Assembly (NCBI RefSeq): GCF_036711975.1 | Contig: NC_091973.1 | Location: forward strand, 13,268,001 to 13,332,000 | From: Onthophagus taurus | Lineage: Eukaryota; Arthropoda; Insecta; Coleoptera; Scarabaeidae | Direction: 5' to 3' | Length of the DNA stretch: 64,000 nt | Position numbers and translations under genes: made by a program | Part shown: piece after piece, positions 1,501-63,235 of the stretch | Layout of the letters: each line of letters opens with the position of its first letter | How positions within the stretch are numbered: position 1 is the stretch's first letter | Notes under the pieces: model-generated | Databases searched by the model: none | What the model was told of the DNA's origin: nothing | Seen by the model: only the letters and a program-made list of their open reading frames with translations

Positions 1501-1870
1501 CCATACCGAATAACGCTTTTATAACCTTTTCTGCAAGTTCGGCTAGCAAAACAGCACCCGAAAGCTCTAGTCGCGGCAATGTAATTGCTTTTAAAGGAGT
1601 GACTCCGCTCTTAGAACACAGTAAACGTACGTAAATTTTGTCATTTAGCAAACAGCGAATATAAAGACACGCTCCAAAAGCCCGATTACTAGCGTCGCAA
1701 AACCCGTGTAATTCTACTCGAGTATAAGTCGAAATAAATGCGCATCGGTCAATGGTTATCTTAGAAATCTCGCGTAAGTTTTTTGAGAAATGTATCCAAT
1801 CTTGTTGTAAACTTAAAGGCAAACTTTCATCCCAGGATAACCTTTCTTTCCATAAGTCTTGAATTAACAT
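1496..1870 (-). pseudogene. BEL/Pao pol fragment (end of RT and RNase H region)
   Basis: About 124 residues typical of Pao-type pol between reverse transcriptase and integrase: MLIQDLWKERLSW, then ELHGFCDASNRAFGACLYIR (RNase H-like) and KAITLPRLELSGA. It has no start of its own; the preceding codon run is closed by a stop at the junction with the STT3B fragment. Its downstream part is cut off where the R2-type LINE begins near 1500. It is a scrap of a larger Pao element and cannot make a working protein. Confidence 0.8.
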
Positions 1871-3006
1871 TTTACCCTAATCTCTTTGGGATGCACCATC
1901 CACAAAAACTTGTTAACATCATCACCAGAATACCCAATAACCCCTCCAAATATCACCAAAACATAAGCAACATCAAGAGATGTCATTATATCGTAAGCGG
2001 CACTTTCATTTGAAGACATCGCCTTTCCAACTAACGCTATATGACTATTATTCCACGTGTTATTATCAACCAGAGTCGTCCGATTAGCCATTCCAGCTAT
2101 TTGATAACCATAATCCCACCAACTCATTATGCGAGCATCATCACCAGTATTTTGAGATAACCAAAAGTAAGCTTCCCTGAAATCATCGAGAATTTGTCTC
2201 GAACCATCGCCACCATAAGATGCCAAAACGACACTTGGACTTGAATAAGCATTACTGGTAACCCAGGTACAATATACAGCAAAGAGCATTAAAAGCAACA
2301 TGATTATAACCAAAATTATGCTGCGTAAATTTGGTCCAATTGCATCTGATTCGCGTTGTTGTTGCTCGTGTTTCATTTTTGGTACACGACCCGCTTTATC
2401 GTAAAGTTTACATCCAGAGCTGCTTTCTTCAACTTCTTGTCCGTCGGTTTCCGAGATAACCTCTTCTTTAAAGAACAAATCCAATAACCCAGAAAATGCA
2501 ATTCCACTTAACACACAAACCACGGGTGTTAAGGTCAACATCAATCTCACCATAACCCCAGCGAAATAAACAGCGCTCAAAGCGTACAAAACAACGAATA
2601 CTATTTCGTCGTTTATGTTTTTAATGCAGTACCAAAGACCGGCTGGGAAAGTAGTTACCAAAATGTGTAAATCAAAAAAAAATGAGAACCATGTTGTCGG
2701 TTGATGTTCCGAAACGGAAGCTATAATGGGAATGTGAATTTTAGCGTAACCCGTATCCCATAAGGAATAGAAACGACCACTCCAAGGAGCAATGTAACCC
2801 GCGTAAGTAAGAATGACAACCGATAAAAACACAACCCCCGCAGCGCTTAGTACACCAAAAATAAAGATGGGTTTAAATTCGGATTTTGAAAGAACGCTTT
2901 GAAGATATTTCAAGACAGCAACTGCTACTGATAAAGCAAAAACACCAGAAGCTGCCATATATTCACTTGTTCGGATTGGTTGGAATCCGACGAATCCGAC
3001 GTCGTT
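1864..3006 (-). pseudogene. STT3B: STT3B-like fragment (oligosaccharyltransferase catalytic subunit)
   Basis: An uninterrupted intronless stretch of about 378 codons matches the middle of STT3B, the catalytic subunit of ER oligosaccharyltransferase that transfers glycans to asparagine. Visible marks are GFVGFQPIRTSEYMAASGVF at the start, VRLMLTLTPVVCVLSGIAF, several membrane helices, the catalytic WWDYGYQIAGMANRTTLVD box and YVLVIFGGVIGYSGDDVNKFLWMV. The family normally reads LDVDYVLV; here it is LDVAYVLV. After FLWMV the frame goes straight to HPKEIR, skipping about six residues normally present, then hits a stop where Pao sequence begins. The N-terminal half and C-terminus are missing. Inference: a truncated retrocopy or an isolated exon carried among transposons; a large exon of a true gene continuing elsewhere is less likely because both sides are transposon or unrelated sequence. 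Confidence 0.8.
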
Positions 3007-4719: not shown

Positions 4720-5787
4720 AATGACCTTGAGATCATTAGGATCGGCGCTGAGTGGGTGAAGAGGTCGAGAATTTAAAACGGATTCAACTTGCGTGAGAAG
4801 GGTATAAAATTCCTCGAAAGTTAGTACTCTGTATATCACACATACTCTGTATATGTGATTTCACGGACTTAACTACAGCTTCGCTAAGTCCATTGAAATT
4901 AGGCGATGCAGGAGGGTTGAAGAGCCATTCGATCCCAAGTTTACCACCCGCCTCCTGTGCCAATCGATTCATTTCATTAAATGCACCAATAAAATTAGTT
5001 CCTCTGTCTGAAAAAATACGGGTACAGTAACCACGGCGTGCAATAAATCTACGAAAAGCAGCCATAAATGCTTCGGTGCTTAAATCGGAAACCAATTCTA
5101 AGTGAACGGCCTTGGTGGCAGCGCACACGAAGAGACAAACATACGATTTGAACGTCTTGGCACCACGACGTTTACGGGCGATAGTAGCGAATGGACCGGC
5201 GTAATCAATTCGAACTGTGAAAAATGGTTAGCTACTATAGCGGAGAGTGTACGAAAGCCAGGATGTAAATGCTCTTGATGCAGCTTTTCGACAATCAGTT
5301 CGCTCAATCGACACTTCTTTGGCAATAGAATGGGATGTTTAGCCTCGTAAGGTATTTCAGCATGTCGAAGGCGACCACCCACGCGAATTAAATTTTGTTG
5401 ACATATAAAAGGTGATAATTTACGAAATGATTTTGTGATTATTTTACCAGTCTGGATCTGGTCTTTAAGTTGGGAAAACGATTCAGATTGTACTCGACGT
5501 GCGAGAACATAAAGAGCGGCTTGCTTTTCGCGAATTGTAATTGATAAATTGGAATGGTTATTTTCTTTTCGACAACCTGCAACAAATCTTAGAATATAAG
5601 CAATTATATTTTGTATCTTACTTAAAACGGAGAAGCGATTCATTAAGGTATGTAAAAAGTTTTCTTCTATTTGTTCTGCAACGTTTACGATAACCACTCG
5701 TTTTTCTTCTGATATGCTCTCATCCGGACATGTAGGTGGTGATTTCGATGGCCATTGCGAATGATCCTGTCCTGCCCGTTCCACCAT
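4720..5787 (-). pseudogene. BEL-A integrase region
   Basis: Pao-type integrase in three overlapping frame pieces. 5787-5098 holds the linker and zinc-binding region (LILLPKKCRLSELIV-like, then KLHQEHLHPGFRTLSAIV). 5128-4784 holds the catalytic core with ATKAVHLELVSDLSTEAF, FSDRGTNF and PASPNFNGLSEAVVKS. A further shifted piece reaches about 4720 with [14 protein letters not shown] and SADPNDL. The family normally continues with PLTPGHFLIG, which is absent, so the C-terminus is lost. At least two frame breaks make it non-functional. Confidence 0.8.
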
Positions 5788-6643
5788 AATTTACATCGTA
5801 TCATCTCGGAAGGTAAAAGTCCTCTTGAACCAAGATCGGCGGGATTATCTTTTGATTGTACATAACGCCAACGATTTCCAGGTAAAATATCCTGAATATG
5901 ACTGGTACGGTTCGCCACAAAAGTTTTCCATCGGTGAGGAGACGAATCGAGCCAGTTCAGCACCACCATTGAATCAGACCATGCGAAGATCTCAGGTTGA
6001 ACGATACCGGAGATATTTGATAAGATAAATTTCGTCATATTAGCCAACAGGACGGCGCCACAGGGTTCCAGTCGAGGTAACGAAATAGTTTTTAGCGGGG
6101 CTACTCTAGACTTGGCACAAATCAAACTGATATTAATATTGTTATTAGGCAAAATGTATCGAAGGTACGCCACCGCACAGTACCCAACTGAAGATGCATC
6201 AGAAAACAGATGGAGCTCAACGTGCAAATCTTTAGCGGGAAGAATTAGCCTGGGAATCTTCAACTGTGACAACATTGGGATTTGAAACTGATATTGAGTC
6301 CAATAATTTTGAATTTCTTCGGAAGGGAGATCGTCCCAATTCAATTTTTCTAACCATAATCGTTGCATGACACATTTTGCTGCGAGAATACATGGCGTAA
6401 TTAAACCAAGGGGATCAAAGATGCATGCGATATTGGATAATATAGCCCTTTTACTACAGATGTGATCACGAGGTTGATAAGAGAACCCAATATTGTCGTT
6501 ATATTGCTCCCAGTGGAGACCCAGAACCTTAACGACACCATCTTCGCTATTATCTAATGATACCGGTTTTACACGAAGATCGGCACTAACGTTTTTTAAT
6601 AGTTTAGGTTCGTTACTTGCCCACTTAGCTAACTTAAAACCAG
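5685..6643 (-). pseudogene. BEL-A RT C-terminus and RNase H region
   Basis: From the PLE insertion point the minus strand reads KLAKWASNEPKLL, then VLGLHWEQYNDNIGFSY, SKRAILSNIACIFDPLGLIT and MQRLWLEKLNWDD, the standard path between Pao reverse transcriptase and RNase H. ELHLFSDASSVGYCAVAYLR and KTISLPRLEPCGAVLLAN follow. The frame is open over this stretch and then overlaps the integrase frame near 5700, indicating a frameshift. It is the continuation of the reverse transcriptase that ends at 8756. Confidence 0.85.
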
Positions 6644-6681
6644 TTTAACAATTGTAGATTCAATATTCATCGTTCAATATT

Positions 6682-6746
6682 TATAGAACTATTAAAACTC
6701 TAGGTTAACGATGAAGCTATATTTTATTAAAATTTATTTCGGTGCA
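6682..6746 (+). repeat. PLE-1 left inverted terminal repeat
   Basis: This 65-bp segment is an almost perfect reverse complement of 8690-8755, differing by a small indel in the ATTTTATT stretch. Inverted flanking repeats of this sort are known from Penelope-like elements. The start of the open RT frame overlaps its inner end. Confidence 0.85.
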
Positions 6747-7435
6747 TGGGTTCCCCAGTTTCAGGAGTCTTAGCTGACATTTTCGTAAATAATTTTGAAA
6801 CAGAACTGTTCTTAAATAAATACATTTTATTTACCAAAGAAATTGCTTTTTACGCTAGATATGTTGACGATATTTTTATTATTTTTAATGGTACCCATGC
6901 TAAATTATCCGCGTTACACAATATCTTCAATAATATAAATAATCTGCAATTCACTATTGAAAAAGAAAACAATAACACACTTAATTTTTTTGACTTTCAA
7001 ATTATTAGAAACAATACAGATAATATTTTACAATACAATATTTTCCGAAAACCAACCACCTCAGATAGTATTATTTCAAATAACTCTTTTACCTGTTATC
7101 AACATAAAACAGCGAGTTTTAGATTTTTCTTTAATAGATTGTACAATGTACCCCTTAATGAGCGAGATACCATCTCAGAAATTCAAAAAATTATAAAAAT
7201 AGGAATAAACAATAACTTCACTATCGCCGAAATGCAAAACATATATTTCAATGTCCACAATTCACACATTAATAAAATAGTATACCCACACAACAAATAT
7301 ACACAAACATTCTTATCTATACCTTATCAACCTTCTTTGACTAAATCACTTAATCGCAACTTATCTAGATATGGCATTACAGCTTCTTTTAAATCCGAAA
7401 ATTTAAAAAAAAATTTACAACCACCTTTTCAATAA
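6746..7435 (+). CDS. PLE-1 reverse transcriptase, C-terminal part
   Basis: 229 residues opening at MGSPVSGVLADIFV (the PLE equivalent of the PQG box), then the catalytic ARYVDDIFIIF, then DFQIIRNN and FRKPTTSD, all typical of Penelope-like reverse transcriptase. Domains upstream of MGSPVSG are missing. The frame stops at 7435, 12 bases before the endonuclease frame begins in another phase, so one indel separates two parts normally fused in a single protein. Confidence 0.85.
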   Translation: MGSPVSGVLADIFVNNFETELFLNKYILFTKEIAFYARYVDDIFIIFNGTHAKLSALHNIFNNINNLQFTIEKENNNTLNFFDFQIIRNNTDNILQYNIFRKPTTSDSIISNNSFTCYQHKTASFRFFFNRLYNVPLNERDTISEIQKIIKIGINNNFTIAEMQNIYFNVHNSHINKIVYPHNKYTQTFLSIPYQPSLTKSLNRNLSRYGITASFKSENLKKNLQPPFQ

Positions 7436-7446
7436 CAAACATAAAT

Positions 7447-7770
7447 TTGGAGAGAAAGAAATTTAGTGGCATTTATGAAATAAAATGTTCAGAATGTGAC
7501 ATGTTATATATTGGTCAAACGGATCGTAATATACAAACAAGATTCAAAGAACATTTAACGAAGGATAACTCAGCTGTTTACAAACATATTCACAACTTTA
7601 ATCATAAAATAGATATCAATAATTTAAAACTTATCAGAAATGTCCACAAATCTAAGGAGTTAGACCTTTTAGAAGAATATTACATCAACATCAACAATTA
7701 CAATAATCGCCTTATGAATGACATTAATGATTTGAATAACTTTAGATATTTCACTAAATTCATAAAATAA
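7447..7770 (+). CDS. PLE-1 GIY-YIG endonuclease domain
   Basis: 107 residues with SGIYEIKCSECDMLYIGQT, the GIY-YIG motif with the Cys-Cys insert characteristic of PLE nucleases, then TRFKEHL and a late glutamate in LLEEYYI. In intact PLEs this nuclease is the C-terminal domain that cuts the target for reverse transcription. A frameshift separates it from the RT. The first codon is not a real start; the domain was part of the upstream protein. Confidence 0.85.
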   Translation: MERKKFSGIYEIKCSECDMLYIGQTDRNIQTRFKEHLTKDNSAVYKHIHNFNHKIDINNLKLIRNVHKSKELDLLEEYYININNYNNRLMNDINDLNNFRYFTKFIK

Positions 7771-8039
7771 GCTTGTTTTCATATTCAAATTTCCCAGCTT
7801 CTTAAAAAACTCCAACGTCAACGCATGCGTTACCTCCTTTCAGATCATCTTCTCGTTCTTGTTCCAATAGTCCAAATTTATCAACCATCTGAGACAGATG
7901 GACTCCAAATAAATTTTTTCTTTTGATAAGTTTTTTATAATAATTCGACTTTTTTTAACGATGAAACACGTGAGTCATAATAACTTTTTAGAAAAAAAAT
8001 TTATACTAACCTTGAAATTTTCAGAATTTATTATAAATA

Positions 8040-8421
8040 CACCTATCCCCCGATTTACATGGTAGATACGTTCCTGAGAAAAACGTGTAAATCGAAAATT
8101 AAAAATTTTCAAGTCAAAACCGTGTAAATCGAAAAGCTTGCAGAAGATGCATAATTTTGCTATTTAACAGTTGTGATTTTTTTCAATATTTTTAGGTGTA
8201 CACAGAAATAAAAATAAAATGCATTGACAGGTTAAAATATGTAATATATTTTAAGTCAGCACATAAGCTCGGGATTCCCCGTGAGATGTGTACACAGCGC
8301 ACGTGTTCAATCACAGTAGCATTTAGTAAAGTGCGATAAAAACAAAAAAAAAACTTATTTGGAAAACCGTGTAAAAGCGAAAACGTGTAAAACAAGTACC
8401 GTGTAAATCGGGGGATAGGTG
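8040..8421. mobile_element. MITE with pogo/Tigger-like ends, inside PLE-1
   Basis: The ends CACCTATCCCCCGATTTAC and GTAAATCGGGGGATAGGTG are perfect inverted repeats flanked by TA on both sides (8038-8039, 8422-8423), the Tc1/mariner target signature. The interior repeats CGTGTAAATCG-type words several times and has no coding sequence. It lies in the PLE-1 3' region, so it arrived after PLE-1. Confidence 0.8.
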
Positions 8422-8657
8422 TATATTATAACAAGTCCTTCAGGATTTTAAATTTTTGGTTTTTAAGACAAACATTTTAAGGCTTTCGAATTTCAATTTG
8501 AATTTTTTGTTATGGTTTTGTAATATTTGTTAATTCTCCAGTTTTCAATCCGATTGTGGCTTTACAAATTCCAACTCCTTTAATTTGACAGTAACTTAAA
8601 TGTATATTTTCCGTTTAATTAATTAATTAATTATACATAATGTACTTTCAGTCGTGC

Positions 8658-31039: not shown

Positions 31040-31266
31040 AACAAAAAATTGTTATTGAGATATGAGATGGTGCAAAAATGCACCACTGGTAAGATAAGTG
31101 AACAACAGCACACAAAAATTTTGATTATCATTTATTAACTAAGTAATAAATTAGTCGTAAATAAATAATAATACTAATACAATTAAACTAAGATTAGAAC
31201 TAAAACTAGAACTAACACTAGAAACTTTCGGGTTTTGCCGTGCGTCTTTTAATAAAAGGTTTGACG

Positions 31267-31296
31267 TTTCGGATGCCATGTTGCAACCTTCTTCAG
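31267..31296 (-). ncRNA. Hammerhead-like core in PLE-2 tail (degenerate)
   Basis: Minus strand: CTGAAGA, a 6-bp stem II with one mismatch (GGTTGC/GCATCC), then GAAA. The mirrored copy is at 32506-32535 (+). It fits CUGANGA-stem-GAAA, but a stem III ending in U-H is not found (GACG is followed by CA), so it is probably inactive. Confidence 0.4.
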
Positions 31297-31385
31297 AAAC
31301 TGGTTCGAAGTGACGAGATCAAAAAATCGGTAACTATATATAAGTCGGAAAAACTAATTAATAATTAGTTAACGCTAATTACAAA

Positions 31386-32231
31386 CTAATTAATAACTAC
31401 TTGCGTCGCGTCCGGTGTGAGGCGGGAAGAGGTCTTCGTGTTCACCACCATCTTCCATGTTCTGCTAAGCTCCCAGCCATCCTCTCTGTTGACGTTATTT
31501 TTATGTCGGTGAATCTCTATGGCTTCTCTTGTCAGTCTTTGGTAGTATCTGTTGTCCCTAGCCAGCACCTTTGTTTGTTCGAAGTCTATTCGGTGCCCCT
31601 CTGCATGGCAATGTTCCGCAACCGCCGACTGCTGGATCTTCTTCAGCCTTACATCCCTCTCATGCTCCTTGATGCGGCACTCGACGTTGCGTCCAGTTTG
31701 ACCAACATAAACCTTCCCACAACTACAAAATAGTCGATAGACTCCCGCTCCTTTTAATGGAGTTAGTTTGTCCTTGGCTATCGGGAGTGTGTTCCGAATT
31801 TTGCTGACCGTGCCGTACCGCACTACGATGTCGTTCTTCTTGAGGTGCCTAACAATTCGTTCCGTTACACCTGAAACATAGGGAAGACAGATAAATCCAA
31901 GTGGTTTTGTACTTACCGTGTCCTCTTTCTGCTTTCGCTGCTTGATGGCCTGGTTGATGTCCCTCGAAGTGTATCCATTCTTCTGCAGCACGCCTCGTAG
32001 AAAGTGTTGCTCCTTCGTCAAGTTCTCTCCTTCACATAGTCTCGCTGCTCGCTGAAATAATGTACGGATCACGGACCTCTTCTGTTGGGGATGATGATGT
32101 GAACATGCCTGTAAATAGCTGTTGGTATGGGTCTTCTTTCGGTATACACCAAGTTCTATATCTCCATTTGTCGTCCTGGTGACCAACACATCTAGGAAAG
32201 GTAGTTTACCGAATAGACTTCGAACAAACAA
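31386..32231 (-). CDS. PLE-2 RT C-terminus and GIY-YIG endonuclease
   Basis: 281 residues, open. It starts in the late RT (KLPFLDVLVTRTTNGDIELG, VYRKKTHTNSYLQACSHHHP), passes the linker (GFICLPYVSGVTERIVRHLK, RNTLPIAKDKLTPLKGAG) and ends with the nuclease: GVYRLFCSCGKVYVGQTGRN, CRIKEHERD, AVAEHCHAEGHRIDF and REAIEIHRH. The YxDD part of the RT is missing. The last 60 residues are repeated in mirror image at 32234-32416. The Cys-Cys insert within GIY-YIG is the PLE hallmark. Confidence 0.9.
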   Translation of the reverse strand: MFVRSLFGKLPFLDVLVTRTTNGDIELGVYRKKTHTNSYLQACSHHHPQQKRSVIRTLFQRAARLCEGENLTKEQHFLRGVLQKNGYTSRDINQAIKQRKQKEDTVSTKPLGFICLPYVSGVTERIVRHLKKNDIVVRYGTVSKIRNTLPIAKDKLTPLKGAGVYRLFCSCGKVYVGQTGRNVECRIKEHERDVRLKKIQQSAVAEHCHAEGHRIDFEQTKVLARDNRYYQRLTREAIEIHRHKNNVNREDGWELSRTWKMVVNTKTSSRLTPDATQVVIN

Positions 32232-32751
32232 AGGTGCTGGCTAGGGACAACAGATACTACCAAAGACTGACAAGAGAAGCCATAGAGATTCACCGACATA
32301 AAAATAACTTCAACAAAGAGGATGGCTGGGAGCTTAGCAGAACATGGAAGATGGTGGTGAACACGAAGACCTCTTCCCGCCTCACACCGGACGCGACGCA
32401 ATTAGTTATTAATTAGTTTGTAATTAGCGTTAACTGATTATTAATTAGTTTTTCCGACTTATATATAGTTACCGATTTTTTGATCTCGTCACTTCGAACC
32501 AGTTTCTGAAGAAGGTTGCAACATGGCATCCGAAACGTCAAACCTTTTATTAAAAGACGCACGGCAAAACCCGAAAGTTTCTAGTGTTAGTTCTAGTTTT
32601 AGTTCTAATCTTAGTTTAATTCACACCGGCCGTGAAAGCCTTCGTACTTATAATACTAATACAACATTATACTAACAAATACCTACTTTAGTATAAAGTT
32701 TAATATAAAAAATATTTAAACTAAAATTGGTGCAAAAACGCACCAATGGGA

Positions 32752-41830: not shown

Positions 41831-42427
41831 AAAGTGTTTTTTCAATTAGGAATTATAATATTCAATCTATTTCTACCCAACAAGGGTTATTGATTTAGTA
41901 AAAGACTAAATTATCCTCGTCTTTATCGAGTCCATTGCTTTTTAATAATAGCTCCAACCGTTTAACATAAGTCTCAACATGATTTACACCATAGTGCTCA
42001 ATGGACCTCACAAAGCCTGTCATTCTTTTCTATTTTTGACCTTGAAGATTTCTTTCTTTTGTTTTTCTTTATCTTCGTCGCCAAATTTCATGTATATCCC
42101 AATAAAACACTAGTTTCTTATCTATTACCTAATTACGTCTATTAACAAGTGTCTTTGTTCTTTTTACCAACTGCTTTTTAGGACGATCTCTCTCTAATGC
42201 AGATTCCTGGCCCTTTCTAGTTCCCTACACGTTAAGTATTATTGTAACAAAATTAATATTATATTGTATTAGTGGTGTGTATAACAAGTAAGCAATAATA
42301 TTTCTTTGTACAGGATGACTTCGATGATGAAGCTAAAGATGACGTCAATGAAGAAACTAGTTTTAAAAATTCTTTTTATACTACACTGCAGCCATTTCTA
42401 CTAACCGATATTGAAAATTAATTATTA
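41831..42427 (-). pseudogene. gypsy-type gag N-terminal scrap and spacer
   Basis: At about 42030-41880 the minus strand reads MTGFVRSIEHYGVNHVETYV, KRLELLLKSNGLDKDEDNLV and then SITLVG in another frame. This is the usual opening of Ty3/gypsy gag (Y-x2-RLE ... N-x-(I/L) ... LxxVG). No other gene is seen up to the inverted duplication at 42428. Confidence 0.4.
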
Positions 42428-43059
42428 TTTATGGACTTTTGTATCAACTTTGAGTACCTCGTGTAGACGTATGAAGCATTGCACAACATTGTAATATCAA
42501 AATGTTCCCTTTAGAATTGTACGAAGAATGTAGCTACATCTAGATTATCCGTCAATATATACACCTTGCACTTCTCCTGTCTCTCCGGATTTTGGACAGG
42601 AAATTAAAATATGCGAAGATTGGGAGTATTTATTAAACTGTTCTTATACTCAAAATAAGCACATATTCTCAGCATGCTGCTTAAAAAATCACACATTATC
42701 TGTATATATATTCAGGCTTTTCTAAATTTATATACTATTGCAACTTACTTGAGGATATAAAAGCTAATAAACACTTAAGAAGACAATAAGAATACAATAA
42801 TAGACATAACTATAAGAAACTATTCACAACTAATACAGTTAAAACGACTAAACTGAATATCGGGAGAAACAACAAGAATTAATTAAGTTAAAATGGAAGA
42901 AGCAGTCGAATGATCATAAAGAGTGTTCGAAGAAACACCATAAGGCAAGGGAAAAATGTATCGATAATAAAATTAAAATTAACGATCAGAAAAAGATTGT
43001 TGATGACAAAATCGGTGATAGATTATGCCCACCTCCCCCTATTTTAGATAAATTCGATC

Positions 43060-44640
43060 ACCATGACGAACAGCGAATAATAAACAATGATTTATTAGAA
43101 CCACCGATGCTTTGTGGCATAACCGATGAAAAAAATTATGAGAATTTCCAAGATATTAATAAAAATAATAATAAGCGTTGTTTTACCCCAGATTTAAATG
43201 ATTCTAGTCCGGAAAACTTTTCGTCAAAAAAAAAAAGAAAAGGTGGGAGGCCCAACAGTTCGTTACTATCATGGAGTTTGTCTACAACATAAACGTTGGT
43301 TTCTAATGAGGCTAAGAAGGGTTATACGAGTGGATACCTTTTAGTGGCTAAACAAAGGTTACTTGAAAACAGTACGTTTTCGGATACCCCGCTGAGATTA
43401 ATCGAAAAATCCAATGAACAGAAGAAGGAGAAGAATCAAAAAATAGTGGAGAAATGTAAAATAAGGTCGAAATTGAAAACTGAACCTATGATTAAGTGTT
43501 ATGGCAAGATGATGACGATGATGAAATTCAGGATAAGTTTAAGGAAGATAAATTTAAGGAAAATAAACTTATTGAAAATAAATTTAATGAAAATAAACTT
43601 AATGAAAATAAGTTTAATGAAGATAAGGTTAAAGACAAACTGAAACAAGAAAAATTAAAATTGGGTCAAGATAAACTAAGTCAAAAAAATGTTGGTGCAA
43701 ATCTTCAAAAAAATTTTAAAAATGAAATGAAAGAGATTGATTATCGTTGTCTATCAAAACCGGATGATTTGGATAAAAAGAGAGTTTTAACAGCAATGGG
43801 AGGGTTATTTTACGCAGGAGAATTAAAAGCGGTTGAATCGCCCGACGTTTACTCCATAACTTTGAACGGAGACTTTCTTTATTTTAGATTTTAGAAGTTT
43901 ATTCAAGAAACGAAAAAGAATTAACGGTCGGAACAAGAGTAGTTGATTATAGGAGTCAAAAATATCGTTGCCTTTATCCCGGAAATGTGGCAGAACCCGA
44001 TTCATCTACCTCAACATTTCTTTCTGTCTATTTCGACGACGGCGATAACGGAAAAATTCCATTGAAAGACATCCGATTAATCCATTCGGATTATCCCTTC
44101 ATGAAATATGACCCAAATTCTTTATCGAGCTTAAGCAAGAGTAAAAGAAGAACGTTAACAATAAAAGATTCGAGCGGAAAAAATTCGACTCCACCAACAC
44201 CGAATCAAAAATTCAGGATCATTTCGAAATCCAGGAGAAGCACCAACCGGATTCCTCGACGTTTACTAATATTAATGATGACAAGGATAAAAAGGAAATG
44301 GAAAACCAAGAGATTGAAAAGAAGGAGCGAAAACATCGGTGTATCGAGGAAAATTGTCAACACAAAAATAGGAAGCATAAGAAACATAAGAAACATCTTC
44401 ATAAAGACGAGAAAAGCGATGAGAAAAATGTTGAAGTACTCAAAATTACTAATGAAGAAATCGATTTCGATTCGAAGAAAAGTTTCGAAAAAATTGATTC
44501 GAAAGAAATTAATGAAGAAAAAGATATTAATGATGAAAATGATTTTAATGTAGAATTGTGGTTGCAAATCCCGAAGATGAAATTACCATGGAGAACATCG
44601 AGGATACTTTGGATGAAAGCAGCAGGTATTTCGAAATAGA
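43060..44640 (+). pseudogene. winged eye/BAHCC1/TNRC18-like fragment, left arm
   Basis: Successive frames give NFSSKKKRKGGRP, NEAKKGYTSGYLLVAKQRLL, a Lys/Asn/Glu repeat ([20 protein letters not shown]), [20 protein letters not shown], and VGTRVVDYRSQKYRCLYPGN with FDDGDNGKIPLKDIRLIHSD and YPFMKYDPNSLSSLSKSKRR. The last part is the Tudor-like domain of the BAHCC1/TNRC18/winged eye chromatin proteins. A one-base frameshift sits at CYGK/DDDDDE (43505) and others near 43290, 43893 and 44230. The tail is Lys/His-rich. With the BAH exons downstream in the same orientation it represents the C-terminal end of that gene. Confidence 0.7.
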
Positions 44641-44680
44641 CTAGCTTAAACAATTAAAAATAAAAATAAATTAATTAATT

Positions 44681-44992
44681 ATAAATACGAAGGCTTTCAC
44701 GGCGGGTGTTAATTAAACTAAAACTAGAACTAACACTATCACCAGAACTAACACTAGACCTAGAACTGGAAACTTTCGGGTTAAGCCGTGCGTTTTTTGA
44801 AAAAATGTTTGACGTTTCGGATGCCATGTTGCAACCTTCTTCAGAAACAAGTTCGAAGTGTCACTTTGAATTTGTTTACTGAAAACATTTTTTCGAAAAA
44901 CGCACGGCTTAACCCGAAAGTTTCTAGTTCTAGGTTTAGTATTAGTTCTAGTGATAGTGCTAGTGTTAGTTCTAGTTTTAGTTTAAATTAAT
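44681..44992. mobile_element. Miniature palindromic Penelope tail
   Basis: Two mirrored copies of the PLE-2 end: CGGGTTAAGCCGTGCG... on the left and CGCACGGCTTAACCCG on the right, with arms of about 110 bp. It carries the CTGAAGA/GAAA motif (44814-44844, minus). It appears to sit in an intron just before the BAH exon. Confidence 0.75.
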
Positions 44993-44996
44993 TAAT

Positions 44997-45340
44997 TAAC
45001 TATTTTTTCGTCGATTTCAGCTTTTCTTTTCGACCGCAAGTTCAGATAGAGCCTATATTGGAATCATCGAAGAACTTTGGGAGATTTTAGGCAATGTGAA
45101 TTGCCATGTTCAATGGCATTATCACCCAGAAGAAGCAACCGAATACGATATTAAGTTCCAAACTCCCGTAAGAATGAATTTATTTTAATTATTTAATGTA
45201 ATTAGTTTAATTAAATTCATTTTAGGGTGTATTATTTGAATCGAATCACCAAGATGAGAACGATGTCCAAACGATTTAAAGGAAATGTGACGTTTTGCAA
45301 TTAGAACAGTATTTTTAAAGTATTTTTAATGAGGATTAAA
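44997..45340 (+). pseudogene. BAH-domain exons of the winged eye/BAHCC1-like gene
   Basis: Exon A (after TTTCAG near 45019) reads AYIGIIEELWEILGNVNCHV and QWHYHPEEATEYDIKFQTP, up to a GTAAGAATG donor at 45169. A 56-bp intron ending in TTTTAG follows at 45224. Exon B reads GVLFESNHQDENDVQTI, then a stop, then RKCDVLQLEQY. These are the PYIGRIE, W-x-Y-PEE and GxLFxSxHxDENDVQTI blocks of BAH domains in BAHCC1/TNRC18. Retained introns show a genomic, not mRNA-derived, copy. The in-frame TAA marks a pseudogene. Confidence 0.8.
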
Positions 45341-45844
45341 AAGATGGAAAAATAAAATTTGACGTTGACAACCGAAGTTACTCAAAACTTTATTGTTTAA
45401 ACTAAATATGGAGTATTTGCACTCCTTTTAATGCAAATTTTGTGAGGATGTCATATTTATTAAGTATAATAGTTCATACCATTAAGTAATTAAAAAGTTA
45501 TTTTAAAATTAAACGAAATGGTTAGAATTCCGATTATAAACGTCAACTTTAATTTACAATTTTTAAAAAAAATTTCATTAAAAATCTTTTAAAATGAATG
45601 CAAACACGATTATTTTATCTTAGAAAAACAACAAAGATCAAAAGAAAAAAATTAGTAACATGAAGAATTTTTGAGATAACCCCATCGTGTTTGGAGTCAT
45701 TCTAGAAGACTTTTCGTGAAGATTACGATGCAAAAATGTTAAATAAATAAACTCACGGCATATCTTAAAATAGGCATGATGTGGGGCCGATATCTTTGCT
45801 TGCCGTCCAAAGTTATGGGTAAACGTCGGGCGGTTCAATCGCTT

Positions 45845-47330
45845 TCAATTCCCAACGATCGTCAATCTCGTAAAATCATATTCATTATTAATTACAGCAT
45901 TAATATCTTTTTCTTCATTAATTTCTTTCGAATCGAAATCGATTTGGTCAATATTAATTTTGACTATTTCAATATCTTTTTCATCGCTTTTCTCGTTTTT
46001 ATGATGATGTTCCCTGTGTTTCTTATGCTTCCTATTTTTGTGTTGACAATTTTCCTCGGTACACCGATGTTTTCGCTCCTTCTTTTCAATCTGTTGGTTT
46101 TCCATTTTCTTCTTATCCTTGTCATCATTAATATTATTAAACGTCCAGGAATCCGTTTGGTAACTCTCCTGGATTTCGTAATGATCCTGAATTTTTGATT
46201 CAGTGTTGGTGGTGGTTCTTTCCGCTCGAATCTTCCGTTGTTAACGTTCTTCTTTTACGCTTGCTTAAGCTCGATAAAGAATTTGGATCATATTCCATAA
46301 AGGGATAATCCGAAGGAAGTAATCGGATGTCTTTCAATGGAATTTTTCCGTTATCGTCGTCGTCGAAATAGGTGAATCGGGTTCTGCCACACTTCCGGGA
46401 TAAAGGCAACGATATTTTTGACTCCTATAAGCAGCTACTCTTGTTCCGACCGTTAATTCTTCTTCGTTTCTTGGATAAACTTCCAAAATCTAAAATAAAA
46501 AAAGTCCCCGTCCAAAGTTATGGAGTAAACGTCGGGCGGTTCAATCGCTTTTAATTCTCCCGCGTAAACCAACCCTCCCATTGCTGTTAAAACGCTCTTT
46601 TTATCCAAATCATCCGGTTTTAATAGACAACGATAGTCAATCTCTTTCATTTCATTTTTAAAATTTTTTTTGAAGATTTTCACCAACATTTTCTTGACTT
46701 AGTTTATCTTGACCCAATTTTAATTTTTCTTGTTTCAGTTTGTCTTTAACCTTATCTTCATTAAACTTATTTTCATTAAGTTTATTTTCATTAAATTTAT
46801 TTTCAATAAGTTTATTTTCCTTAAATTTATCTTCCTTAAACTTATCCTGAATTTCATCATCGTCATCATCTTGCCATAACACTTAATCATAGGTTCAGTT
46901 TTCAATTTCGACCTTATTTTACATTTCTCCACTATTTTTTGATTCTTCTCCTTCTTGTGTTCATTGGATTCCTCGATTAATCTCACCAGGGTATCCGAAA
47001 AGGTACTGTTTTCAAGTAACCTTTGTTTAGCCGCTAAAAGGTATCCACTCGCATAACCCTTCTTAGCTTCATTAGCAACCAACGTTTATGTTGTCTATAA
47101 ACTCCATGATAGTAATGAACTTTTGGGCCTCCCACCTTTTCTTTTTTTTTTTGACGAAGAGTTTTCCGGACTAGAATCATTTAAATCTGGGGTAAAACAA
47201 TGCTTATTATTATTTTTATTAATATCTTGGAAATTCTCAAAATTTTTTTCATCGGTTACGGCACAAAGCATCGGTGGTTCTAATAAATCATTGTTAATTA
47301 TTCGCTGTTCGTCATGGTGATCGAATTTAT
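45845..47330 (-). pseudogene. winged eye/BAHCC1-like fragment, right arm
   Basis: Mirror image of the left arm: [60 protein letters not shown] and then YFDDDDNGKIPLKDIRLLPS. It shares the CYGK/DDDDDE frameshift with the left arm, so that lesion came before the inverted duplication. Part of the Tudor N-terminal half is deleted near 46370. It ends near 45845 without BAH exons. Confidence 0.7.
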
Positions 47331-48039
47331 CTAAAATAAGGGGAGGTGGGTATAATCTATCACCGATTTCGTCATCAACAATCTTTTTCTGATCGTTAAT
47401 TTTAACTTTATCATCGATACATTTCTCCCTTGACTTATGGTGTTTCTTCGAACACTCTTTATGATCATTCGATTGCTTCTTCCATTTTAACTTAACTAAT
47501 TCTTGTTGTTTCTCCCGATATTCAGTTTAGTCGTTTTTAAGTGTTTTAGTTGTGAATAGTTTCTTATGGTTATGTCTGTTATTGTATTCTTATTGTCTTT
47601 TTAAGTGTTTATTAGCTGTTATATCCTCAAGTAAGTTTCGATAGTATATAAATTTAGAAAAGCCTGAATATATTTAGTACTTATTAATGTGTGATTTTTT
47701 AAGCAGCATGTTGAGAATATGTGCTTATTTTGAGTATAAGAACAGTCTAATAAATACCCCCAATCTTCTCATATTTGAATTTCCTGTCCATAATCCGAAG
47801 CGACTGGAGAAGTGACAGGTGTGTATACATTGACGGATAATCTAGATGTAGCTACATTCTTCGTTCGATTCTAAAGGGAACATTTTGATATTAAAATGTT
47901 GTGCCATGCTTCAATGTTGATACAATAGTCCATAAATATGGACTTCTATAAATGACTGCGATTTAGTATAAAAATTACTATTTTGTGTTCATTCTTACTC
48001 GTAGTGTTCTATCAGACAAAAAACTGTTTATTAGTAATA

Positions 48040-49430
48040 TTAGGGATGGTGAACCGTTCATTCCTGCCAGTTTAAATAGAAGACCTTTATGCCACACTGA
48101 GTCAAATGCCTTCTTGGTATCTAAACGTAATGCCGAATTTTCTTCTGCCGGTTTTGCTTAAATAAGTTTGACGTTAGAATCTTAAAGGGTGAGTAGTGGA
48201 CATTTTTGATTTGAATCCAAACTGATATGGTGGAATGAACGAATTGACCACAGACAGTAATCTGTTCTTTATAACAATTTCAAAGGTTTTTTCGATCACG
48301 GATAATAGAGTAACTGGTCTGTAATCCCTCGGAGAGAGTAAGTCGTCTTTTTTAGGAATACAAATTATTGTTTCCCATTTTTCATTCTTTAGGAAAATAT
48401 CTGTTCTTGATACAATAATTAAAGATTTTTATTATGTATATATGTACCTCATCATCCAATCTTCTTAAAATATTCCTTGTAATGTTATCCGATCAGAGCG
48501 ATGAGTTTTTACCATTGTGTAAAGCTATACAGGTTGTCCCGTATCTTCCGCATCAGAGCATTGTACGGTTGTAGGATACATTATTCTGAAGCGCTCATTC
48601 TAATAAAATGTTTTCGAATTTTTTTGTTTATAATAACCGCACGGGAACAGTTTAAAGTTATCCGCTATTGTCCAATAGCGGACGACTTTGAGTCACCGAA
48701 AAAGTTTATTTCTCTTTCCGTGTCGAATCTATTGGTGAGTACAGGTGAGAAACAAGTTATCATCGGCAAAGTGGACCTGCCGAGGGTGGCACCGATTACC
48801 TGAGTCTGATTTGCGATCTGCTGATTGGACGAAAAACAGTTCGTTTAAACAGTTCCTGTGTGGTTGTTATAAACATTTCGAAAAAATTTTATTGGAAAGA
48901 TCGCTTCAGAATAATGTATCCTACAACCGTATAATGCTCTGATGCGGAAGATACGGGACAGCCTGTATATGTATGTTGTTGAAATTCATTTTACCATTGA
49001 TCTACTTCCTGGAATTTGTTTTTCGAAATCATCATTTTCCAAAAATTCGTAGCTTTCTTCCAGATATATGAGTTGCCGCTAAATCAATCTCTGAAGTACA
49101 CGTGGTACCTGTGTGTTGGTCAATAAGCGCGTGTGAAGTTATATTCTTTTTGTGATTGGTTAATTTTTTAATTTAATGAAATATTTTTTCCCTTTGGAAT
49201 GATTTATTTTATCACATGCTTCAATATATTTTGACGATTTAAATTCCCAAATTAATTTATGAATTGTTTTATTAAAATCATTGAATTTCGTTTGAATTCG
49301 GCGTTCTCAGTTATCCTAATCTCACGATACATTCTTCTTTTCTCTTTTATTAGTCTTATAATGAATGGTGGCGGTGGAAACGTTCCTTTTGGGTCGACCA
49401 CGTTTTCGTTGTGACCGGAAAGACATTTCC
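48040..49430 (-). pseudogene. LINE fragment (jockey/CR1-like), split by a MITE
   Basis: 49430-48990 reads MSFRSQRKRGRPKRNVSTAT and later WEFKSSKYIEACDKINHSKG and KKYFIKLKN, the linker between endonuclease and RT. After the MITE, 48420-48040 reads EKWETIICIPKKDDLLSPRD, YRPVTLLSVIEKTFEIVI and PPYQFGFKSKMSTTH, the first RT blocks. Several stops are present. The basic RKRGRPK motif at the start resembles an AT-hook, perhaps by chance. Confidence 0.6.
48530..48965. mobile_element. MITE with about 140-bp inverted repeats and TA duplication
   Basis: The ends CAGGTTGTCCCGTATCTTCC and its mirror at 48965 are flanked by TA (48528-48529, 48966-48967). The arms pair over about 140 bp with mismatches. 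The ends resemble mariner ends (CAGG.TGTCCC). It interrupts a LINE fragment. A scrap of the interior also occurs at 62141-62200. Confidence 0.8.
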
Positions 49431-50878: not shown

Positions 50879-51788
50879 ACAGTTACTGGAAATGTTTAGG
50901 AAGATATCGACGTTAAAGTTTTCGGTGAAGCGCGCTCTGAGTTTCCCAATCAGTTCTTATCTATTTGAGTTGATAGGTTTATTACGTACAGGCTGTCCCA
51001 AAATCCGCATAGGTTATCTCCGAAACTAAAAGAGATAGAAAAAAAGTTGCTTACATGTCATGATCTCGTTTTTCGAGAAACTGCTAATGCCGAAAACTCC
51101 GAACAGCTATCGTCTTTTGTTTTCGCCTTATCGGCAAGAACTGAAAATTTTCGAAGCGAAAAACTCGAAGAAACTTTTAAAGAAACTCACTTCGAACCAG
51201 TTTCTGAAGAAGGTTGCAACATGGCATGCGAAACGTCAAACCTTTTCTTAAAAGACGCACGGCAAAACCCGTAAGTTTCTAGTGTTAGTTCTAATTTTAA
51301 TTCAATTCACACCGGCACTGTCTGAAAGCCTTCGAACTTATATATCAAAAATTGTTTCGAACAAAAGATGTTTAAAGTTGATATCTGTTTTTGTTAAGAC
51401 TATGTACTGGTATGATATTGATGGTGTTAATCGGGCATTAATTAATTGTCGATTCTAATAAAAATTATTAGGAGGAAAAGTTGTTTAGAATTCAATTTTC
51501 ATGAATGAATACAAGTTTTCACTTATGAAATCGTCGCTAATTATCCTTACGAATGCGCCTTCATCTGCATTAATAAAAATGACTGTTAGGTTCTAATTTT
51601 TTGAAGATAGAAATGAATACTAAAAGAATAAATATAAGTAAAAGAGGTTTTTCTTTTAAACATACTATCATTAAAATCTAATTAGGTTCGAATTAACCCG
51701 ATTAAGTAATTTTTAATAGCCTCGTTAAGACCTTAATTACTATTCCGCACATATAATAACCTCCAATTCTGTATAAATTCACAAAATA
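50879..51788 (+). repeat. Long inverted repeat, left arm (partner 63131-64000)
   Basis: CACAGTTACTGGAAATGTTT at 50879 is the mirror of the last bases of the window, and TCTGTATA at 51788 mirrors 63131. The arms are collinear apart from small indels. The arm includes a mariner-like end (CAGGCTGTCCCAAAATCCG at 50991), a Penelope tail (about 51185-51345) and AT-rich sequence. The partner runs off the right edge. Confidence 0.85.
51185..51345 (+). mobile_element. Penelope tail remnant (PLE-2 family)
   Basis: CTTCGAACCAGTTTCTGAAG through the CTGAAGA (51204) and GAAA (51230) motif to CACCGGCACTG and GAAAGCCTTCGAACTT is the same 3' tail as in PLE-2. No coding part is attached. Confidence 0.75.
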
Positions 51789-56106: not shown

Positions 56107-56760
56107 GTATTAATGAGAGCGAGTCTGTAAAGAAAATTGGAATTCGCGAAGATTTCTTTTTAAAAAATAAAATGAAACTTCCTTAAATAATTTCCCAAGG
56201 GTGTGTGCGAACTTGGAAAATCAGTTCATAGATGACGCTAATATACTAAAAAAAAAATAAACAGTTACAAATTGAAATGAAAAGTTTTATTTATTTGTAT
56301 AGTATTTTATTATAGAATCGTTTTCACTTCACAAGTAATGTTTTAAAGTTTAAAATTTATTCAAAAAGGAATTCGTCAACAGATTTTTAAATAAATCTAA
56401 AATTAAGAACTTATATTCTAAAGTTTCGAGTTGATGTAACATTACTTATCCTCTTAAACCTACTTTCACACCTATTACTAATGTTACCAATTAAATCCAA
56501 AGGTAAAAAGTCTTTTTTAGAGACTTCAAATTTTGCCGAACAATTATTTGAAGGTCTTCTGGAGAAACATATTGATTAACATAGTATCACGAGAACTGTC
56601 ACTTACAAAAGAACTGACTAAACTGAACTTTATACAGAATTATGAATGAATTATGGAGGTTATTATATGTGCGGAGTAGTAATTAAGGTCGTAATGAGGT
56701 CATTAAAAATCACTTAATCAGGTTAATTCAATTCAGGTTTATTTAATATATAAATAATAA
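56107..56760. repeat. Repeat unit with shortened F-box-like remnant (partner 62447-63235)
   Basis: Shares AATGTATTAATGAG, GGAATTCGTCAACAG and the F-box gene's 3' half (minus) with 62447-63235 in direct orientation. Here an internal deletion of about 250 bp joins the Met region to the last third, leaving an ATG plus 8 codons before a stop. The end (56640-56760) also matches the 63140-63235 part of the long inverted repeat. Confidence 0.8.
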
Positions 56761-62446: not shown

Positions 62447-63235
62447 ATGTATTAATGAGCCAATTCAATTTGAATGAGCCTGTAAAGACAATTGGAATTC
62501 GCGAAGAAGATTTCAAATTGAAATGAAAAGTTTTATTTATTTTCATAGTATTTTATTTTAGAATCGTTTCCACTTCACAAGTAACATCTTAAAGTTTAAA
62601 ATTTATTCAAGAAGGAATTCGTCAACAGATTTTTAAATAAATCTAAAATTAAGAACTTATATTCTAAAGTTTCGAGTTGATGTAACATTACTTATCCTCT
62701 TAAACCTACTTTCACACCTATTACTAATCTTACCGATTAAATCCAAAGATAAAAAGTCTTTTTTAGACACTTCAAATGTCGTCGAACAATTATTGACAGG
62801 TCCATTTCTTATTAATTTAACTACACTACTTGGATTTAGGTAATAATTAACTCTTCGCTTTTCCTCGGAAGTTTGAGCAGCCCTCAATCGTCTTCGAAGA
62901 GTTGTGTGTTCTTGACAAATGTCCATCACCTTGGCATATGTTACAGCTGCAATCAAAAGAGATTTCGGATCCAAAAAACCTAGAATCATTATTATTAATT
63001 CCACCGGAAACTCTAAAAAGAAAGGTATAACTTGGTTCGTGTAGATCTTCTTCTGGATAGTCTGGAAAAACATATTGATTAAGGTAGTATCACAAGAACT
63101 GCCACTGACAAAAGAACTGGGTAAACTGAACGTTATACAGAATTGGAGGTTATTTATATGTGCGCAATAGTAATTAAGGTCTTAATGAGGCTATTAAAAA
63201 CTACTTAATCAGGTCAATTCGAACCTAATTAGATT
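62447..63235. repeat. Repeat unit carrying an F-box-like gene
   Basis: Direct partner of 56107-56760. It overlaps the start of the long inverted repeat at 63131, so F-box unit and inverted repeat are adjoining modules of one larger repeated block. Confidence 0.8.
62657..63073 (-). CDS. Small F-box-like protein
   Basis: 138 residues, open, starting MFFQTIQKKIYTNQ. Residues about 18-62 look like an F-box: FFLEFPVELIIMILGFLDPK, SLLIAAVTYAKVMDICQEHT and TLRRRLR. F-boxes bind SKP1 in SCF ubiquitin ligases. The rest (NPSSVVKLIRNGPVNNC, SKKDFLSLDLIGKI) has no known domain and no WD or LRR repeats, so a substrate domain is missing or novel. It is part of a repeat; a copy at 56456-56575 has lost the F-box. 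It may be a gene fragment carried by a transposon. Expression is unknown. Confidence 0.6.
   Translation of the reverse strand: MFFQTIQKKIYTNQVIPFFLEFPVELIIMILGFLDPKSLLIAAVTYAKVMDICQEHTTLRRRLRAAQTSEEKRRVNYYLNPSSVVKLIRNGPVNNCSTTFEVSKKDFLSLDLIGKISNRCESRFKRISNVTSTRNFRI

Follow-up and report, generated by a model that had tools for sequence, protein, structure and literature searches.

The window analysed here, 64,000 nucleotides of the Onthophagus taurus genome (C8:13268001-13332000), contains a large palindrome at 42428-47942, an inverted repeat with two arms of ~2.1 kb (A and B) and ~1.2 kb between them. A repeat search found collinear inverted blocks of 882, 309, 308, 156, 142, 143 and 93 nt with 89-96% complementarity between 42472 and 47913, and arm A is 94.0% identical to arm B over 2023 aligned columns. 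This inverted repeat is far above chance expectation and bears out the mirrored gene fragment with 2.1-kb arms described in the original prediction. Its features are collected in Table 1.

The palindrome is derived from a BAHCC1/winged-eye gene. The Tudor region of the arm (43888-44553) matches the Pfam family PF21744 (BAHCC1-like_Tudor) at 75.3 bits (cut-off 28; 3.6e-21), and its top match in the PDB is 8ye8, which is BAHCC1 (E 7e-12). A joined peptide of 60 amino acids (aa) from the loop gives 26.8 bits with the BAH family PF01426, under the cut-off of 30.8. We searched the genome (290.8 Mb, 33 contigs) with both peptides; the match counts are lower bounds. The Tudor peptide gave 74 matches from 75 candidates, all scored, with 73 on C8 and one on C5. 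For the BAH peptide there were 34 matches, of which 33 lie on C8 and the other falls at this same C5 gene. This gene, hereafter the parent, is the sole relative outside C8 and has long intact frames: its Tudor exon and the preceding exon lie in open frames of 327 and 946 aa, with BAH exons downstream in the order found in the loop. The winged-eye/BAHCC1-like name proposed earlier is thus upheld by the PF21744 score, the PDB match and the single match off C8, as is the proposed layout, with Tudor in the arms and BAH exons and their intron in the loop (45022-45310). The outer ~430 bp of each arm have no match in the 15 kb of the parent locus that were compared, and match the genome on C8 only (40 scored of 102 candidates).

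Table 1. Features of the window palindrome and of the co-amplified open frame (positions are those of the window).
Feature	Position	Strand	Evidence
Outer part of arm A, no origin in the parent stretch	42428..42855	+	No match to C5:4969001-4984000
Arm A copy of the lysine-rich exon 5' of the Tudor exon (parent 5028-6240), broken frame	42856..43872	+	85% and 78% identity blocks to parent; indels
Arm A BAHCC1/winged-eye Tudor exon (parent 7247-8078)	43883..44645	+	81% identity to parent; PF21744 3.6e-21
Loop: short inverted repeat resembling a miniature inverted-repeat transposable element (MITE)	44715..44978	.	96-nt arms, 91% complementary
Loop: BAH exon 1, intron, part of BAH exon 2	45022..45310	+	86.6% to parent 8292-8580
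Loop: inverted remnant of exon end and intron absent from both arms (parent 6188-7093)	45349..45851	-	Two blocks, 73% and 77%
Arm B, mirror of arm A	45898..47942	-	Inverted blocks, parent match, arm identity
Stretch common to other array copies, palindrome central	41911..48670	.	Multi-locus alignment
F-box-like open frame, 138 aa, co-amplified with palindromes	62657..63073	-	Family search, profile matches, alternation

The arms are 85-87% identical to the parent in aligned columns (88.6% for the truncated arm L020_B) and carry common lesions. All 16 arms listed lack parent ~6242 to 7240, about 1 kb that includes the exon end, splice donor and intron, and 14 of them have a 4-bp deletion at parent 7552; in the remaining two, this site is covered by an overlapping 8-bp deletion (arm B of the window, WIN_B) or by a 278-bp deletion running across it (L019_A). 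As a candidate for a working BAHCC1/winged-eye gene, the window copy has no intact reading frame, with frame changes and the splice donor lost. A processed (retrotransposed) pseudogene was considered and rejected because the introns were not exactly removed: one before the BAH exons and one between them are partly kept, and the missing intron was lost along with about 50 bp of exon. The piece is therefore a DNA-level copy with a deletion. Since the loop holds an inverted remnant of the missing intron together with the end of the preceding exon, the formation of the palindrome probably involved another copy, one with a smaller deletion. The original prediction held that the fragment was a pseudogene before it was mirrored and took a frameshift shared by both arms as proof. 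The conclusion is retained on the strength of the ~1-kb and 4-bp deletions, but the argument itself is not supported, because the 1-base frameshift near 43500 (parent 5675) is present in only two of the eight palindromes listed (the window palindrome and L019, each with the frameshift in its two arms; neither arm of the other six has it). This frameshift lies inside an exact A-B run of 263 bp (43422-43684), which makes arm-to-arm copying the likelier reason for its sharing, with the caveat that part of the run changes slowly and that runs of 120-147 bp also join arms of different palindromes.

After split matches were merged, C8 carries 71 Tudor copies, of which 68 pair as a forward copy followed by a reverse copy into at least 34 palindromes, leaving three single arms. 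The palindromes lie in two clusters, with 23 at 13.31-14.26 Mb (cluster 1) and 11 at 18.01-18.33 Mb (cluster 2). The starts of paired Tudor exons are 2.0-2.3 kb apart in all but L019 (680 bp). Spacings between palindromes range from 20.7 to 60.1 kb, except for two at the left of 67 and 95 kb, and particular values recur (27.96 kb four times, 36.5-36.8 kb eight times). Repeated units with recurring spacing on a single chromosome identify the array as a tandem amplicon. A single alignment extends across exactly the common stretch of Table 1 in 11 of the 22 loci compared, and is split or differently bounded in the others; beyond this stretch, the comparison covered a few hundred bases only. The 20 kb between two palindromes contain 17 frames of at least 90 aa, and three of the six scanned against Pfam match retroelement domains (reverse transcriptase, DUF4780 with endonuclease and, barely, zinc knuckle); one of the other three has a weak zinc finger match and two have no match. 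A 667-aa open frame in one array unit (L042:7563-9566) has no Pfam match. Long inverted ends with a loop, present in many copies, could also describe a foldback-type mobile element that captured a piece of a gene. However, every copy found is in the two clusters of one contig, the spacings recur as in tandem duplication and the common sequence extends past the arm ends. The genome peptide and outer-arm searches found no dispersed copy with target-site duplications, which leaves a mobile foldback element very unlikely.

To relate the arms to one another we used a tree of 46 arms and the parent. The arms come in pairs from 23 of the 34 palindromes, namely 21 of the 23 in cluster 1, the window's among them, and two of the 11 in cluster 2; some rows are partial (L020_B fills 39% of columns). 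The A arms form one group (starred, 100/97), which also contains L019_B, and the other 22 B arms form one group with weaker support relative to the parent (88/48, unstarred). The A/B labels require two label changes on the tree, compared with a mean of 15.6 when shuffled, L019_B being the sole exception. Given this separation of the A from the B arms, a single origin of the palindrome followed by its multiplication is most likely, and the two arms would since have evolved mostly separately; an A group branching from within the B group could also be accommodated. Arms of the same palindrome are not each other's closest relatives, except for L019_B, unlike in an ampliconic palindrome kept identical by gene conversion. 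The ampliconic palindromes of sex chromosomes are reported to be likewise inverted duplicates in amplified arrays with some local arm-to-arm copying, whereas the C8 arms are ~2 kb long, mostly unhomogenised, and carry a pseudogene.

Local copying was assessed from the longest exact A-B runs. The 263-bp run in the window and one of 362 bp in L019 were each reached by 0 of 500 shuffles. Runs of 123-166 bp in L022, L035, L039 and L040 were reached by 5, 5, 18 and 11 of 500, respectively, and L017, L018, L021 and L036 showed little or no excess. Six of nine control pairs taken between palindromes also showed an excess, with runs of 120-147 bp in five and one of 380 bp between L017_A and WIN_B, suggesting that change is uneven along the arm and that exchange is not limited to the arms of one palindrome. 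Within the window's run, the segment 43535-43594 belongs to the parts of the arm that change most slowly. For these reasons we accept apparent conversion only for the runs of 263, 362 and 380 bp.

The reading frame of the arms appears to be free of protein selection. Changes within the family, counted over 598 sites at each codon position in 13 arms, are uniform across positions 1, 2 and 3 (127/109/125), as would be expected without such selection, while the fixed differences between family and parent (44/33/97) fit a parent under constraint. The Tudor exon is spanned by open frames as long as 264 aa, and arms that still encode a shortened Tudor protein would be one way to account for them. 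The uniform codon positions, the common 4-base frameshift and the lost splice donor reject such a coding duplicate, which we regard as extremely improbable. Mean identity across five lineages is 94.9% and 95.6% for the gene parts of arms A and B, 95.2% and 95.7% for the outer arm pieces, 95.5-96.2% for the loop pieces and 95.3% for the right flank (L039 has no data for the right flank and the outer piece of arm B). No such comparison is possible for the left flank, where three of the five copies carry different sequence. The arms are therefore no more conserved than the loop or the flank. Exact matches to the parent are few: 120 of the 4126 21-mers of the parent exons occur in any of the 46 arms, and individual arms have 26-77 in common with the parent (14 arms listed). 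All 12 arms tested had a count under the shuffled mean, which we take to indicate no excess of parent matches, and not avoidance, because the shuffles ignore the clustering of differences at third positions, which by itself lowers the count. Given the 85-87% identity to the parent, the few parent 21-mers and the lack of extra conservation in the arms, no sign in the sequence favours a hairpin tuned to regulate the parent.

An F-box-like open frame is amplified together with the palindromes. Between 13.54 and 14.26 Mb the two alternate near-perfectly (19 palindromes and 18 frames, one frame missing). Coverage of at least 124 of the 138 aa is seen in 31 C8 matches. Of these, 30 lie inside the two clusters, 29 without a stop and one with one stop; the remaining match, at 16.24 Mb and in neither cluster, is an old copy interrupted by seven stops. 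Further C8 matches are fragmentary or decayed, and there are smaller groups of paralogs on C3, C1 and C7. The window copy matches the Pfam F-box at 19.0 bits, under the cut-off of 20.5, but the F-box is matched in 6 of 6 family members (one at E 2.3e-5), and the family profile matches the FBXW7 F-box in the PDB at E 0.0012. By eye, a candidate promoter lies 5' of the window frame (TATAAATA at about 63158, with TCAGTT ~30 bases on), which we take to resemble an insect core promoter.

Selection on this frame was examined in 10 C8 copies, namely the window's, the spacer's and eight chosen among copies without stops. They are 97.5% identical in the frame, compared with 92.5% upstream and 94.1% downstream, a contrast much of which is driven by L050 (C8:18240900-18241700), in which identity to the other C8 copies is 96-97% for the frame but only about 78-85% for the flanks. 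This pattern may reflect either conversion or selection confined to the frame. The ratio of nonsynonymous to synonymous substitution rates (dN/dS) to the C3 paralogs is 0.20-0.30; among C8 copies, the changes show no preference for any codon position (17/14/17) and pairwise dN/dS, based on few changes, varies from 0.26 to above 2. The apparent evidence for selection on the frame is therefore mixed. A hairpin aimed at the F-box-like frame was also considered and rejected, as the outer arm piece has no match to it, and neither the window nor the 20-kb spacer yielded an inverted copy of the frame. At 51375-51776 the window does contain an inverted copy, 84% identical, of the sequence upstream of the frame but not of the frame itself, and at 56265-56729 a fragment of the frame region on the same strand. 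Near the frame of one array unit there is an inverted repeat with 563-nt arms, 88% complementary, and a 68-nt loop (L042:1437-2630), which is not present at the corresponding window position.

The palindromes might instead be hairpin-RNA loci, whose transcripts, either their own or produced by read-through, would fold into ~2-kb double-stranded RNA (dsRNA) and yield Dicer-2 small interfering RNAs (siRNAs) acting on the C5 parent and/or on array transcripts. The window palindrome is a long inverted repeat able to form extended dsRNA, the copies number at least 34, and the arms have 512 to 949 exact 21-mers in common in the eight palindromes counted, such that any transcript of both arms could be diced. 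By eye, a TATA-like box, TATAAAAG, lies at about 42756 in the outer arm; it is retained in seven of the 10 arms listed but altered in three (WIN_B, L017_A and L017_B). The scarcity of parent 21-mers, below the shuffled mean in every arm tested, and the lack of conservation beyond loop or flank speak against such a role. We nevertheless keep hairpin RNA as a possibility, with a chance well below even, because a transcript of both arms would form long dsRNA whatever its letters and because comparable hairpin clusters exist in flies. Regulation of the C5 parent specifically would be less likely again.

The closest comparison is with Drosophila simulans, in which clustered hairpins derived from a duplicated gene are known: for the hp-tHMG cluster and hp-ODox1, small RNAs, Dcr-2 dependence and transcripts have been demonstrated (PMC10317233). 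Like the C8 palindromes, these are inverted repeats from a piece of a gene on another chromosome. The source of hp-tHMG is an HMG-box gene, and its 13 clustered hairpins have paralogs alongside; they occupy ~27 kb, whereas the C8 units are mostly 20-60 kb each (PMC10317233). The C8 array also differs in being known from sequence alone and in having arms only 85-87% identical to its parent. The Nmy/Tmy hairpins and the Dox family are similar in that inverted-repeat loci are related to a gene family on another chromosome, but those hairpins match amplified protein genes (PMC10292708), while the C8 arms match a chromatin gene and not the adjacent F-box-like frame. C8 could hold a self-amplified conflict locus outside Drosophila, in which units couple a small F-box-like protein gene with a chromatin-gene hairpin, germ-line siRNAs from the hairpin reduce the dose of the chromatin factor (or silence the array) and copy number is the weapon, a scenario that we regard as improbable. 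An array of this kind was not named in the titles and the opening parts of abstracts of the open-licence literature searched. We looked up the RpS3A and ephrin families as candidate sex-chromosome markers for C8, two marker genes residing on Drosophila chromosome 4. RpS3A has two genome matches, both on C16, and ephrin has three, on C7, C8 and C11. Drosophila chromosome 4 is reported to be the ancient insect X (PMC10715201).

Elsewhere in the window there is a second strong inverted repeat (31181-31594 and 32208-32621) with 414-nt arms that are 99% complementary, overlapped by an open frame (31386-32240) that by eye resembles a GIY-YIG/Penelope-like element. A MITE-like element at 48526-48969 has 99-nt inverted ends, 92% complementary, with 246 nt between them. 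Left of the array, 1864-3006 on the reverse strand is a long exon of an STT3 oligosaccharyltransferase gene (PF02516, 129.9 bits).

The explanation that we favour, at a probability of roughly 0.6, is that the palindrome is a passenger pseudogene in a tandem amplicon and itself does nothing specific. A DNA-level copy of an internal part of the BAHCC1/winged-eye gene on C5 would have landed on C8 and suffered the ~1-kb internal deletion and the 4-base frameshift. This broken copy would have been mirrored once, and the ready-made palindrome would have multiplied inside the amplicon, presumably by unequal crossing-over, in units of mostly 20-60 kb; these units contain fragments of transposons and, along some of the array, a single F-box-like open frame per unit. 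The palindrome would now drift as neutral DNA, with local arm-to-arm copying in some copies. Several observations weigh against this account. The hairpin form is rarely lost, as 33 of 34 palindromes keep the Tudor exon spacing, which a function would predict likewise, and the exact runs in the window and L019 keep stretches of the arms perfectly paired. A dsRNA role requires pairing whatever the letters, and the absence of sequence constraint is compatible with it. Cluster 2 and the left edge also depart from the regular alternation of palindromes and F-box-like frames.

Transcribed palindromes would amount to a large clustered source of gene-derived dsRNA originating in a chromatin regulator and alternating with copies of an amplified F-box-like frame, and would resemble the fly hairpin clusters tied to sex-chromosome conflict. 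If there is no transcription, the array would be a clear case of a mirrored pseudogene that was made once and raised to high copy number through tandem amplification, and would caution that inversion of a gene fragment does not alone make a regulator.

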